Shown piece by piece: positions 5,120-10,626 of a stretch of DNA of 64,000 nt (the stretch's first letter is position 1; every line of letters starts with the position of its first letter). The position numbers and the translations under genes are program-made. The stretch is from Phycisphaerae bacterium (lineage in GTDB: Bacteria > Planctomycetota > Phycisphaerae > UBA1845), in contig JAJVHU010000013.1 in NCBI GenBank assembly GCA_022072505.1, positions 62,001 through 126,000 on the forward strand, in the 5' to 3' direction. The notes under the pieces are model-generated. The model searched no databases, was not told the origin of the DNA, and was given only the letters and a program-made list of their open reading frames with translations.

Positions 5120-5743
5120 TCAGGAGTTTTGATCCAGGAGATCCTTGAATTCCGACCGCAAGTCGTCGGCAAAGCGCTGCAGGCCCGTCTGTATGCGCTG
5201 GTTGCAGCGGTTCAGGTGGAGCCTTCGGGCGATCTCCGGGAGCACGTCCCGCTCCAGTATGTCGCTCGCCCGAGGACTCTTATTATAAAGCGCGTGCAAG
5301 GCTTCCTTCGGCGAGGACATCCCGACCGGCGGGGGAACCGGGTGATTCCCGGGCAGCTTCAGCATTTCGCGCACGGCCGCCGGATCGTCGATCAACCACG
5401 CTTCAAAATGCGGTATTGCACAACCCAGCGCGGCGGGCATCGGGGCGTTGTTCCGGCGATGGGCTTCCCGCCCTGCCTTCAAGGCGTCGAGCCGCTCGCC
5501 GTCGTGCTGATCATCGTCAATGATCGCCACGACGCCCTGCAGGCCGTCGGCGGACGCCCGGGCGAGCGCAAACATGAGCTTCCTCCCGAGCTTGGACAGA
5601 CCTTTCTGATGAAACCTTTGAATTGAAGGCGACGACCACGCAGTGAACGTGGTGATGATCTCAAGGCCCAGCAGGTTCTCCACCAGGGGCGGCGCTGCGG
5701 CTTCGTCTCGAGATCCTTCACCGAGGAACTGAATTCGGATCAT
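5120..5743 (-). CDS. DUF4276-like protein (TOPRIM-related fold), partner of the ABC-type ATPase
   Basis: N-terminal GEGxxD, VVAIIDDDQHDGERLDAL (DxD), IPHFEAWLIDDPAAVREML; ATGA overlap with upstream ATPase. Confidence 0.7.
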   Translation of the reverse strand: MIRIQFLGEGSRDEAAAPPLVENLLGLEIITTFTAWSSPSIQRFHQKGLSKLGRKLMFALARASADGLQGVVAIIDDDQHDGERLDALKAGREAHRRNNAPMPAALGCAIPHFEAWLIDDPAAVREMLKLPGNHPVPPPVGMSSPKEALHALYNKSPRASDILERDVLPEIARRLHLNRCNQRIQTGLQRFADDLRSEFKDLLDQNS

Positions 5744-6693
5744 GAGGGCGGTCTGATGAGTCCTTCCTCGGATTCGTTGTACCAGATTTCGCCGAGGAGG
5801 AATTCCTTCGTGAAATGCTTGAGGCGTTCGCGGTTGACGGGCTGCGCCGTGCGGCTGCCGTCGTCGTTGCGTGAGAAGACGAGAACCTCGTCCTCGTCGA
5901 GGTTGATGCAGTCGAGGAGGTAAGGCGAATGCGTCGTCAGGATCACCTGCGACGGCGGCGCGCCGAACTCGCCCTTCGTCAGCGAGCGCAGGAGTCCGAC
6001 GACGTCTTTCAGGCGCTTCGGGTGCAAACCGTTCTCCGGCTCCTCAATGAGGATGAACCGGGGGGCATGAGGATGTTGAGCGAGAGCTACGAAGAAGAGC
6101 AAATACTGCACACCCACGGAAAGCTGGTTTGTCGGCAGCACAAGGTTGTTCTCCAGTTTGAACTCAATTCGGCGAGAGGAGGCGGTCGGAGTCCCAATAT
6201 CGAGATCGACCAGCCCCTCAACGTGCCGTTTCATCGTTTCAACAAGCTTGTCGCGGCGTTGGCGATCTCGGCGAAGAAAGTAATCCAGGATCGTAGGAAT
6301 GTTCGCACCGTCAGTCGCGATCGCCGGAGGGCGGATGGCTGAGTCGGCTACGCCCTCCGATTGAGCTGGGATTCCGCCGGACGGCAACATGAATCTGGCC
6401 ACCTCGCAGACATTTCGAACTTCGACACCACGTCCATCGTGCCGGCGCGTGTCGAGAATCAAGGATGTCTGGTTATCTTGTCTTCCAAGAATTCGAACTA
6501 CTGAGTCAACGCTCAAGCCCCAACGCTCAGTTTGATCGATATTGTGACTCCCAGCGGTAAGGAGGCACTGAATCGCGCGGAGGAAGCACGATTTTCCCGT
6601 GTTGTTCGGCCCGATGAGGACGGTCAGGGGCTTGAGCGGCACGTCGACGTGTTTGAAGCAGGCGAAGTTCTCGATCGTCAGTTGTTCGATCAC
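5740..6693 (-). CDS. AAA/ABC-type ATPase (OLD/RecF-like, AAA_21-type)
   Basis: Walker A GPNNTGKS, signature-like LSVGVQ, Walker B FILIEEPENGLHP, switch TTHSPYLLD. Confidence 0.85.
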   Translation of the reverse strand: MIEQLTIENFACFKHVDVPLKPLTVLIGPNNTGKSCFLRAIQCLLTAGSHNIDQTERWGLSVDSVVRILGRQDNQTSLILDTRRHDGRGVEVRNVCEVARFMLPSGGIPAQSEGVADSAIRPPAIATDGANIPTILDYFLRRDRQRRDKLVETMKRHVEGLVDLDIGTPTASSRRIEFKLENNLVLPTNQLSVGVQYLLFFVALAQHPHAPRFILIEEPENGLHPKRLKDVVGLLRSLTKGEFGAPPSQVILTTHSPYLLDCINLDEDEVLVFSRNDDGSRTAQPVNRERLKHFTKEFLLGEIWYNESEEGLIRPPS

Positions 6694-6780: not shown

Positions 6781-7953
6781 TCAGCCCCTCGCCAGGGCGC
6801 GGAGGAGACGACGGGACTGGGCTCGGATCCACCCGAGAGCGCCGGGCCCCGCCGCGCCCGGCTGAAGGTGTTCGCGCCCCGGGAACACGTGCATGCGCAG
6901 GTACGCTGCGCGATCGCGCACCCCCGGAAGGCAGAGCAGGTCAACGAGGACGTGGCGGAGCGGGCGGACCGCGTCGTGCGGCGCCTGATGAATCGCGATC
7001 CGGTCCTTGAGCGAGGGGCGTAACGCCGGGGCCGGCTGAAGCAGGCCCGCGAACGCCGCGAAGCGCTTCGGAAACACCTCCTCGATCCGGCGCACGGCGA
7101 GGGACATCGGGTAGGTCAGCCGCCACGTGGAGGAGAGCCGGCTCACACGGCCGAAATCGATCCGCCCGGCGTAGTGCTCGCAGAACCGCACGACGTCGTG
7201 CAGCCAGCGAAGCTGGGACAAGCCGTGACCGGCGGCGTGGACGCAGAGGTGGATCAGCGTCTCCTCGATCGAGGGCGTCCACGCAGGTTCATCGGCGACG
7301 ATGATCCGGCGCGGCGCCAGCCACATCGCCTCGGGGGGGACGGTCCGGCGGTAATGAACCGGCCTGAAAGGGCGAACGTGCAAGTCAAGCCGCAGCGCGG
7401 GCCGGTCCGACGTCAGGTACGGGCGCTCGTAGTAGAACCGCGGGAAAAGCCCCTCGTGCAGGGGTTCGCTTTCGCGGCGACACCCGAGCGAGTTGAGGAT
7501 CCGGTCCGCGCGGCCCGAGTCCTCCTGTCGGATGAGCAGGTCGACGTCGGACATGCCGCGAAGGTCGTCGTCGGCGTACACCGTGGCGTTCAAGGCCGCG
7601 CCTTTCAGCAGCAGCGTCGGGACGTCCGCTTCGTGCAGCGCCCGGAGGATCGGACGCAGGCACGCGGACCGTCGTCGGTTGGAGGCGCCGAGGTGACGCC
7701 GATGCTCGTTGAGAATGATCCGCGCGGATGCCGGAAGTCGGACGCTTCGAGCGCGAAGCGCCTCATCCAGCGGGCCTCCGACGCTGAGTTCACAGGCTTC
7801 ACAAAGGGCGCGTTCGATCAGGCCGCTCGCGCACCAGCGCTCGACGACGGGCGCGGGATCGCTGTCGAGGCATCGCGCCAAGCCGTGTTGGAGCGACTCC
7901 GGCGAACGCTCCCGGATCGCGTCGTTCCAGCGGTGACGGAGCGAGCGTGTCAC
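6781..7953 (-). CDS. NTP_transf_5-type nucleotidyltransferase family protein (GTG start, GTGA overlap with upstream gene)
   Basis: LLKGAALNATVYADDDLRGMSDVDLLIRQED, plus DLHVRPF and LIHLCVHAAGHG further on. Confidence 0.82.
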   Translation of the reverse strand: MTRSLRHRWNDAIRERSPESLQHGLARCLDSDPAPVVERWCASGLIERALCEACELSVGGPLDEALRARSVRLPASARIILNEHRRHLGASNRRRSACLRPILRALHEADVPTLLLKGAALNATVYADDDLRGMSDVDLLIRQEDSGRADRILNSLGCRRESEPLHEGLFPRFYYERPYLTSDRPALRLDLHVRPFRPVHYRRTVPPEAMWLAPRRIIVADEPAWTPSIEETLIHLCVHAAGHGLSQLRWLHDVVRFCEHYAGRIDFGRVSRLSSTWRLTYPMSLAVRRIEEVFPKRFAAFAGLLQPAPALRPSLKDRIAIHQAPHDAVRPLRHVLVDLLCLPGVRDRAAYLRMHVFPGREHLQPGAAGPGALGWIRAQSRRLLRALARG

Positions 7954-8984
7954 GCGGCTTCGACTCCGGGGCGGACAGGCTCCTTCGGGCAAGTGAGATC
8001 GGCTGCGTCGGGTCGCCCGGATGCCGGGACGTGCGCCTGCCACGCCGCTTCGAGGACGTCGCAGGTGGCGTCGATCTCGCCGGATTCCAGTTGAAAACAA
8101 GCGGCTCTTTCGACGACGCCGCCGAGCACGTCGAGCGTCGCGGCGCGGTAGCGTCCGAAGGTGAAGCAGACGCCGAGGAGCTGAAAGAGCGCCCGCGCCC
8201 GTGAGAGCGGATGCAAAGCCGGCGCGGGTCGGGCCACGTAGCGCGGAAACACAATCATCCCGACGGGAACCGCCCAGGGCGTCCGGTGCGGACGTAGTGC
8301 CTGCGGATCGATCAGGCGGACCCGTCCTTTCCAGCTCTTTTCGTAGGACGGCAGCGCGCCGGCGGCGGGGCAGAAAGCGTCAACGATCTCAAAGGATCCC
8401 TCCTTGATGCACAGGGCCTTCGGATACGGGTCGAGACAGAGCGTGTCCGGGGCGATCAGGGCGAACTCATCGGAGAGGTAGCTCCAGCCGCGGGAGATCA
8501 ACCGCGCGGTGAGCGTGGACTTGCCGCACTGCGGCTGCGCCGGCAGGACGAGGGCGAACCCGTCGCGGGCGACGACCCCGGCGTGAAGCTGGTGATACCG
8601 CGGCAGGGTTGCGGCGACGGCGGCGTTGATCGCCCACTCCACGTGCGGCAGGACCGCCTGCGGCTTGCGCAGAAGGAAGCGCTCCTCCCCGTCCACGCAG
8701 ACGCGGAAGCAGCGTCCGAGCGGTCGCGCGCGGAACACGCGATCCACGCGGATGTGAACCGCGGAAGGCGCCGGACCGGTGACGAAGCGGCGTTGATAAA
8801 GGCGGTGAAAAGGCTCCCGGAAGCGAGCCTCCTCACAGTGCAGGCAGACCGTCACGGCGCCGATCCGGTAGCACGCGGGAGATTCAAGGCCGGGCGGCGT
8901 CGCGCGGGAGGCGCACCGTGCCGAAGCGCATCCCTCCCGAGCGCGTCCGACTTCACGTTCGCCGGTCGTCGATGCCGTGCTCAT
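7950..8984 (-). CDS. HPr kinase/phosphorylase-related protein (HprK-related kinase type)
   Basis: LVLPAQPQCGKSTLTARLISRGWSYLSDEFALIAPDT (P-loop and SDE motif); ATGA overlap with PqqD-like gene. Confidence 0.8.
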   Translation of the reverse strand: MSTASTTGEREVGRAREGCASARCASRATPPGLESPACYRIGAVTVCLHCEEARFREPFHRLYQRRFVTGPAPSAVHIRVDRVFRARPLGRCFRVCVDGEERFLLRKPQAVLPHVEWAINAAVAATLPRYHQLHAGVVARDGFALVLPAQPQCGKSTLTARLISRGWSYLSDEFALIAPDTLCLDPYPKALCIKEGSFEIVDAFCPAAGALPSYEKSWKGRVRLIDPQALRPHRTPWAVPVGMIVFPRYVARPAPALHPLSRARALFQLLGVCFTFGRYRAATLDVLGGVVERAACFQLESGEIDATCDVLEAAWQAHVPASGRPDAADLTCPKEPVRPGVEAA

Positions 8985-9370
8985 GAAACTTCGCCCGCCG
9001 TGACGTTCCGCGCGATCCAGCCGTGCCGCCGCATCGCGGCGAGAACCGGCGCGACACATGATGCAACGTCGTCCGTCGGTTCGCCGTGTTCATGCGCCAG
9101 CGTTTCAAAGATCGCCGCATCGTCGCGCGTGCCGTCCAGGTGTTTGAAGACCTTCAAGGCGTCGGCATCGAGATACAGAACCTCGTGGGCTCCCGGATCG
9201 TACACGACGGCCTCGGCGCCGATGCGGTGAACGACGGCCTCCCTGCAGATCCGCCAGCTTGCGGATACCTGCGCGCGGATCGCTGAAGATCCTGCGGACG
9301 CCTGCGTCGGCGAAGTGGAGAGGCGGCGCTCTTCTGACGCCTGTTCAGGATGAAACCTGGCTTGCGGCAT
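8981..9370 (-). CDS. PqqD-family peptide chaperone-like protein
   Basis: VVHRIGAEAVVYDPGAHEVLYLDADALKVFKHLDGTRDDAAIFETL...AAMRRHGWI fits the PqqD fold pattern. Confidence 0.78.
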   Translation of the reverse strand: MPQARFHPEQASEERRLSTSPTQASAGSSAIRAQVSASWRICREAVVHRIGAEAVVYDPGAHEVLYLDADALKVFKHLDGTRDDAAIFETLAHEHGEPTDDVASCVAPVLAAMRRHGWIARNVTAGEVS

Positions 9371-9548
9371 ACGTCGACTGCGGTTGCAGAAGCAGAATGA
9401 CCGGGACCGTCTTGAGCGCGGTTTTCCCGATCGTGGTCATCAGGGTGCGGCGCGTGGTTCCAGACCGGTTGCCGGCGCCGTCGTTAACCTCCGAAGCGAC
9501 CCGAGTGTCCGGATCGTGGAAGTTTGCAGGATCAGGGAAAGCTGACAT
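9345..9548 (-). CDS. 67-aa putative small/precursor peptide
   Basis: MSAFPDPANFHDPDTRVASEVNDGAGNRSGTTRRTLMTTIGKTALKTVPVILLLQPQSTYAASQVSS; GGAG about 8 nt upstream of ATG; overlaps the PqqD-like start by 26 nt. Confidence 0.6.
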   Translation of the reverse strand: MSAFPDPANFHDPDTRVASEVNDGAGNRSGTTRRTLMTTIGKTALKTVPVILLLQPQSTYAASQVSS

Positions 9549-9752
9549 CGGCGGCTCCGGTGTACGCGCGCCGGGGGACCACCCCGATCCGGCGATGCGG
9601 TTTTATCGGCGGGAACAAAGGGGGAGTCCGAATTCGCGGTGGGCAGTTCTATTTTCTGCGGGACAAGTTAAATTTTATCGTTAAAAAGTAATTTTAAGTT
9701 TCAATTTCACTTCAGAAAAGGCCTCGGAGCTTGCGTTTTTACGGTTCTCCTC

Positions 9753-9781: not shown

Positions 9782-9933
9782 ACGTCCTCTCAAAGTGCTG
9801 AGAGATGGGTTCGCTCATCCTTCGGCTGCGAGTCTCGCCCGTGGTGGAGAGCGGGCGATCAGGAGGTGGAGAAAGTCACGCAATCATTGTAGATTCGTCG
9901 TGCGTCATTTTCGGGAGGAGGCGGGGTTCAGAC

Positions 9934-10626
9934 ATGCGTAGTATGAAACTGATGGGTGCGGCGCTGCTTGCGGGGGTTGCCGCCCCGGCGATGGCGGGGG
10001 TGATCGTTCAGACCAAGACGGCCACGTTCCAGAGCGACCTGAACAATGACGTGGTCCTGACGTTCGACTCGTTCGACACGCAGGGCGGAACGCTGATTCT
10101 TCAGGGGGTTCGCGTGGATATTCGTCACGCCGGCGGCGCGATTCTTCGCGCCGACAATGACGACACGTTCCAGGGCGCGACGGTGAACGGCCGCGTCATC
10201 CGGGCGTGGTCGCTGACCGGGCCGGATGCGTTCGCCGCGGACAGCGAAACCATCATGACGCCGACGGTCGATCTGACGGCGGATGACGGCGACGGAGCGG
10301 CGTTCGACGCGACGCCTCCGGACGGCACGGACTTCGGGTCGGTCTCCTACGGGCCGGATTTCTCGGCCACACTGAACCCGAATTCCGCCCTGTATGCGAC
10401 GAACGGCGCGGGCACGGTGGATTTCACGACGGATGTGCTCCTGATGGTCAATGACCTTCAGTTCGTGGTCGAGCCGGACGTCTGGCAGCTTGAGGTTCAG
10501 GCGCCGTACCTCGACGTCGAGGTGACGCTGACCTACGAGTTCACGGTCGTTCCGGTTCCGGCTGGCGTCTGGTTGGCCGCCTTCGGGCTTGGCGTCGCCG
10601 GTTGGATTCGCAAGCGCGTCGCCTGA
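9934..10626 (+). CDS. Secreted protein with VPxPA-type PEP-CTERM sorting signal
   Basis: Signal peptide MKLMGAALLAGVAAPAMA; C-terminus VPVPAGVWLAAFGLGVAGWIRKRVA. Confidence 0.75.
   Translation: MRSMKLMGAALLAGVAAPAMAGVIVQTKTATFQSDLNNDVVLTFDSFDTQGGTLILQGVRVDIRHAGGAILRADNDDTFQGATVNGRVIRAWSLTGPDAFAADSETIMTPTVDLTADDGDGAAFDATPPDGTDFGSVSYGPDFSATLNPNSALYATNGAGTVDFTTDVLLMVNDLQFVVEPDVWQLEVQAPYLDVEVTLTYEFTVVPVPAGVWLAAFGLGVAGWIRKRVA

Follow-up and report, generated by a model that had tools for sequence, protein, structure and literature searches.

Among the described systems closest to the locus analysed here are the linear polyphosphorylated peptides (LPP), whose production involves an RRE, an HprK-like kinase, an NTP transferase, an SpI-like peptidase, and an exporter, and which were stated by their discoverers to be restricted to Bacillota (Popov et al., 2026, PMC13381572). 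The precursor LppA has Tyr at position -16, Pro at -13, and Val at -11, its leader is cut after -1, and the kinase phosphorylates S3 of the core, with up to four phosphates per peptide; LppN had no detectable effect, and in the solved LppB-LppA complex Asp70 holds the leader Tyr-16 (PMC13381572). The lasso peptides paeninodin and pseudomycoidin are modified by their kinase at the C-terminal Ser; in pseudomycoidin, PsmN, annotated as a nucleotidyltransferase, adds hexoses to the phospho-Ser (PMC9266682, a review). A further cassette, HPr-rel-A, is named in NCBIfam through its kinase (TIGR04352) and its PqqD family chaperone (TIGR04353) but is given no precursor model there; the open-access literature searched yielded no paper on TIGR04352/HPr-rel-A or on a PqqD-containing planctomycete RiPP.

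We analysed a 64,000-nucleotide stretch of DNA (the window) that sits in a 4.7-Mb draft genome of a Phycisphaerae bacterium. Direct reading of the ORFs reveals a putative minus-strand operon running from 9548 to 6781 and composed of four overlapping ORFs. The first encodes a 67-aa peptide, the second a PqqD-like RRE, the third an HprK-related kinase, and the fourth an NTP_transf_5 protein. Its features are as follows.

9555..9558, minus strand: Shine-Dalgarno-like GGAG, 6 nt before the peptide ATG (9548), by direct sequence reading
9345..9548, minus strand: 67-aa precursor peptide, MSAFPDPANFHDPDTRVASEVNDGAGNRSGTTRRTLMTTIGKTALKTVPVILLLQPQSTYAASQVSS, an ORF recovered by a leave-genus-out HMM, with its family in most related loci
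9366..9452, minus strand: predicted leader/Tat-like signal, R33-A61, from comparison of 72 Pro-anchored peptides and control Tat signals
9348..9365, minus strand: predicted core/tail ASQVSS, from the sequence, with Ser at +2, +5, and +6 and codons overlapping the PqqD ORF start
8981..9370, minus strand: PqqD-like discrete RRE, 129 aa when counted from its first ATG, PF05402 E 1.5e-6
7950..8984, minus strand: HprK-related kinase of 344 aa when counted from the ATGA start, in a reading frame that is open as far as 9059, TIGR04352 E 1.7e-51
6781..7953, minus strand: NTP_transf_5 protein, 390 aa from the GTG start at 7953, PF14907 E 3.8e-39

The initial annotation had described a cassette of four coupled minus-strand ORFs with overlapping ends, and this cassette is real, with the 26-nt, ATGA, and GTGA junctions all visible in the sequence. 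The peptide and PqqD ORFs overlap at 9370-9345, so that the final residues of the peptide share DNA with the start of the PqqD ORF. The PqqD/HprK junction is ATGA, with the HprK start at 8984, and the HprK/NTP_transf_5 junction is GTGA, with the NTP_transf_5 start at 7953. HMM searches bore out the domain assignments made from the letters (PF05402, the HprK-related TIGR04352, and PF14907).

The kinase catalytic residues, whose degeneracy the initial annotation had named as something that would speak against its own idea, are intact. The catalytic His, GK(S/T)T, and DE motifs are invariant across 27 sequences; where lasso kinases have Asp-Asp, these have Asp-Glu. The kinase family profile matches HPr kinases in the PDB, and the AF2 model (pLDDT 86) adopts the fold of the PEPCK/HprK superfamily. 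The KG...R...DxD motif of the NTP_transf_5 protein is also invariant, and its AF2 model (pLDDT 92) finds its closest solved fold in ANT(2'')-Ia and, more weakly, in FKRP; single-sequence PDB searches with the kinase or NTP_transf_5 gave no match.

HPr-rel-A shares its three enzyme families and their order with the window: PqqD-like, HprK-related, and nucleotidyltransferase genes follow one another in the window, an arrangement repeated in L092 and L093. The window kinase scores 175 bits against TIGR04352 (HprK_rel_A), under the curated cut-off of 200, and the PqqD-like protein scores 26.5 bits against TIGR04353, with a cut-off of 35; the window proteins are thus HPr-rel-A kin that fall below the curated cut-offs. 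Kinases of the close kin G014, G050, and G025 reach at least 200 bits for TIGR04352. At a canonical TIGR04352 locus from the window's class (L216, 361 bits), a precursor with the RR...P-x9-AxA pattern lies just upstream, RRAFLRTSVVVGVPLIITFSSRSAWA followed by GKRKKSGG, and proteobacterial HPr-rel-A loci likewise have a protein with an RR leader just upstream of PqqD. Pro-x9-AxA-like spacing was found in 11 of 15 sequences from HPr-rel-A loci (the proteobacterial ones plus L174); sphingomonad precursors have neither Pro-13 nor this spacing. SynChlorMet (ScmC/ScmD, TIGR04249/TIGR04248) shows a weak likeness in the kinase P-loop region and the PqqD domain, but the scores are far under the cut-offs and no further Scm genes were seen.

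The small ORF at the head of the operon is more than a chance reading frame: an HMM built without the window's genus recovered the window peptide at E 4.5e-7, compared with E 0.24 for the runner-up among 1140 window ORFs. The peptide is conserved within the genus, with dN 0.075 and dS 0.177 against L033, figures that derive from few sites. Neither NCBIfam nor Pfam has an entry that matches the window peptide itself; the peptide family has no NCBIfam model and only weak Pfam matches, mostly to the Cys tails.

Among 100 related genomes of Phycisphaerae, HprK_rel_A was detected in 67 (E<=0.001) and was full-length in 63; it occurs in most genomes of the same family and is patchy outside the family in the class-wide sample. 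We retrieved the loci around 60 further kinase matches and recovered the cassette in most of them. Counting the window, the peptide HMM matches 51 of 61 loci, in all but one of these on the same strand and upstream of PqqD, and several of the ten loci without a peptide end at contig edges. Across the 100 genomes, kinase and peptide occur together in 60, the kinase alone in 3, the peptide alone in 2, and neither in 35 (raw counts, uncorrected for kinship). In five loci (L041, L047, L051, L054, and L063), spread over five genera but forming a single clade in the kinase tree, the kinase reading frame continues at its C-terminal end into the peptide. The kinase locus of genome G011 (L036) lacks a peptide, and this genome has an array of five Cys-rich precursor genes (AGSNHSCY...) in tandem some 330 kb away from the cassette (L207:5394-7995).

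These data support the proposal of the initial annotation that the small ORF is the substrate of a peptide-modifying cassette with neither cyclase nor peptidase. Upstream conservation, genome co-occurrence, fusions in five genera, and intact kinase residues all argue for it. We considered that the kinase might instead act on HPr or another cytosolic protein, the small ORF being an unrelated exported peptide. The host genome encodes HPr, and a search of it for the canonical HprK C-terminal domain gave no protein, so the kinase could stand in; however, the in-frame fusions, the RRE in the same operon, and the genome-wide co-occurrence bind the peptide to the kinase, and the RRE belongs to the leader-binding lasso type. 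We regard this target as very unlikely.

The peptides of the family are built alike: an RRx[FVL][LVM]... motif comes first, followed in most cases by [Y/F]xxP; nine residues then lead to AxA, after which comes a tail that is either short and Ser-rich or cystine-rich. We aligned 72 non-redundant peptides on the Pro, the position of which is therefore fixed by the anchoring. Tyr, Phe, or Trp occupies -16 in 63 of the 72, a count to be read with the small bonus given to aromatics at -16 where several Pro were possible. Position -11 is Val, Ile, or Leu in 70 peptides, Ala occupies -3 in 54 peptides and -1 in 62, and a Ser lies within +1 to +3 in 62, its exact position being variable. In the control set of generic Tat signals from 11 genomes, the aromatic-xxP-x9-AxA-like pattern appeared in 1 of 30. 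The window leader has the RR motif, K-16, P-13, I-11, and T-Y-A at -3 to -1 of the predicted cleavage site. The Tat-like leader and the RRE-binding motif had both been overlooked in the initial annotation.

Two types of tail were distinguished. The short tails, to which that of the window belongs, have approximately 5-12 residues and are Ser-rich, and the second type is Cys-rich with a knottin-like C..C..CC..C..C spacing. In many Cys-rich loci, the peptide and RRE genes are separated by one for a VKOR-DsbA protein, which would be the source of the disulfides. In L059, two genes with B12-binding/radical-SAM-like starts, one of them confirmed by Pfam (E 2.9e-19), lie between peptide and RRE, hinting at an extra modification. 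The label of a minimal system in the initial annotation is fair, but VKOR-DsbA or radical SAM genes extend the cassette elsewhere in the family. GT2/GT4 genes recur downstream of NTP_transf_5 in the Cys-rich cassettes L050, L056, L061, L064, L068, and L085. Two degenerate second precursor-like ORFs were also noted (L091:-3674 and L035:-3629, relative to HprK); with the Pro-13 region and the Cys residues eroded, they are possible pseudogenes.

The tails bear on which Ser would be modified. By analogy with paeninodin, the kinase could target the Ser that ends the tail instead of the one beside the cleavage site: PadeK acts on a C-terminal Ser (PMC9266682), and Ser ends 19 of the 28 short tails, including ASQVSS of the window. 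However, the Cys-rich sister tails have no terminal Ser, whereas both types of tail carry a Ser early on (the same 62 of 72), and the cassette lacks the cyclase and the B2 peptidase of the paeninodin type, which makes a paeninodin-like target unlikely.

The cassette does resemble the paeninodin and pseudomycoidin systems in its HprK-like Ser kinase, its homologue of the hexose-adding nucleotidyltransferase, and its PqqD-like RRE; it differs in having no macrolactam cyclase within the cassette itself. Profile comparison of the RRE family with known RREs gave E-values of 3e-10 for TfuB1, 7e-10 for TbiB1, 2e-8 for PqqD, 4e-6 for the paeninodin RRE PbaB1, and 1e-5 for the LPP RRE LppB, so that the lasso-type RREs TfuB1 and TbiB1 outscore PqqD as the best matches. 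Such an RRE, and the co-occurrence of kinase and nucleotidyltransferase in paeninodin clusters (PMC9266682), would suit a lasso or other cyclic peptide with its cyclase encoded elsewhere. The short tails, however, offer no conserved acceptor for a lasso ring, and the lasso B2 peptidase family (PF13471) is absent from the host genome; the lasso reading was dropped on the latter ground, and a cyclic product of any kind is extremely improbable.

The LPP system provides a further parallel, with a precursor, a discrete RRE, an HprK-like kinase, and an NTP transferase, and, as in our cassette, no macrolactam cyclase. Related cyclase-free cassettes had been mentioned in the initial annotation, and in Bacillota the same enzyme set indeed makes linear phosphopeptides (PMC13381572). 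The family's spacing of Tyr/Phe-16, Pro-13, Val/Ile/Leu-11, and an early Ser is that of LppA, with Lys-16 in the window. There are also clear differences. LPP loci encode a local SpI-like peptidase, LppS, whereas no S26 homologue was found in the window cassette or the collected loci by phmmer with the genome's own SPase I as the query. LPP loci have an MsbA-like exporter, but the cassette has none, and none was seen among the scanned window neighbours or, by eye, in 18 mapped loci. The LPP leader motif YxxPxVLxHQxIxFETxxS is not Tat-like, whereas leaders of our family follow the RR-hydrophobic-AxA pattern and leave its HQxIxFET part unmatched. Finally, the reported LPP hosts are Bacillota, and the hosts of the cassette family are Planctomycetota and Proteobacteria. 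The cassette thus looks like an export-linked relative of the linear phosphopeptides.

The RRE contact seen in the LppB-LppA complex was traced through our family by locating the column equivalent to Asp70 from TfuB1/TbiB1 alignments together with the D,+4,+8,+13 spacing. Asp fills this column in 28 of the 39 loci that have Tyr-16 but in 0 of the 14 that have Phe-16, the strongest association of any column (Fisher 2e-6 on raw counts); it is not significant when kinship is counted, because the Tyr/Phe state switches only about twice on the tree. We treat the covariation as suggestive and not as proof. In the window clade, -16 is Lys and the RRE column that would hold Asp contains Cys or Arg (Cys in the window itself), which indicates that the Tyr pocket is not kept there; Pro-13 and Ile-11 are retained in the window leader, and docking may proceed in a modified mode.

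Based on these comparisons, the cassette is probably an LPP-like linear phosphopeptide RiPP system in which the Tat-like signal of the precursor doubles as the RRE-binding leader. Gene set, architecture, conservation, fusions, and intact catalytic residues can be read from the sequences, and from them we infer the chemical steps, export route, and cleavage as follows. The PqqD-like RRE would grip the leader, normally via the [Y/F]xxP that lies within the signal's hydrophobic stretch, and the HprK-related kinase would phosphorylate a Ser among the first few residues past AxA (within ASQVSS in the window), both steps being suggested by the named families of these proteins. NTP_transf_5 would then add a further group, sugar or nucleotide, onto the phosphate, a step for which the hexose transfer by PsmN speaks. 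The peptide would be exported by Tat and trimmed by the housekeeping signal peptidase I, TatC and SPase I both being encoded in the host genome. The product would be a peptide that is very short and rich in Ser; sister loci would give a mini-protein rich in disulfides instead.

The identity of the NTP_transf_5 reaction, given that LppN was without effect in LPP, and Tat export are the weakest points of this proposal. Lys-16 in the window clade, the sphingomonad precursors without Pro-13, and the shifting position of the early Ser also speak against it. PF10518 matches 1 of 27 peptides; the RRx[FL][LVM] motif, a hydrophobic stretch, and AxA are present, with the RR located 30-60 residues in. 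In the five kinase-peptide fusions, the RR-hydrophobic-AxA segment lies near residue 330, inside a 400-aa protein, and cannot be an ordinary N-terminal Tat signal there. The long N-terminal region before the RR and the fusions with the kinase would suit another arrangement, in which the RR-hydrophobic segment is an uncleaved membrane anchor that holds the decorated tail outside, perhaps as the acceptor for a glycan made by neighbouring glycosyltransferases. GT2 and GT4 genes adjoin many Cys-rich loci, and LPP loci are located within capsule loci (PMC13381572). However, AxA stands at a fixed spacing from the Pro in most peptides, as a cleavage site would predict, and no glycosyltransferase adjoins the window cassette among the genes examined. 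We give the anchor a low probability. An extension of the preferred reading, of a Tat signal that doubles as leader, is that the family forms a separate and widespread RiPP branch in which the RRE serves as a Tat proofreading chaperone until the peptide is phosphorylated and capped; we put this forward tentatively and consider it rather doubtful.

The genes flanking the operon were also inspected. A divergent choice-of-anchor E protein (9805-10626, plus strand) ends in a VPLPA/PEP-CTERM-like tail, VPVPAGVWLAAFGLGVAGWIRKRVA. The initial annotation had suggested a possible link between the cassette and this gene: the gene is conserved beside the cassette only in the same-genus loci L032 and L033 and in none of the other loci, which leaves the link unsupported. 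On the other side (5120-6693, minus strand), an AAA/OLD-type ATPase (E 4.6e-35) and a DUF4276-like protein (E 6e-4) resemble a candidate defence pair of the HEC-01/AriA type. This pair is missing beside the cassette in L032 and L033 and thus looks like an insertion.

With these assignments, the present work supplies the probable missing substrate for the named HPr-rel-A cassette, which was undescribed in the literature searched, and would carry the biosynthesis of linear phosphopeptides outside Bacillota. Because kinase and substrate are fused in nature and the cores are very short, both the kinase and the puzzling NTP_transf_5 are directly testable. The leaders of the family suggest that one sequence can serve both as a signal peptide and as a RiPP leader. 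If the separate branch is true, it would span Planctomycetota and Proteobacteria and would yield both tiny Ser-rich phosphopeptides and knottin-like disulfide-rich peptides.
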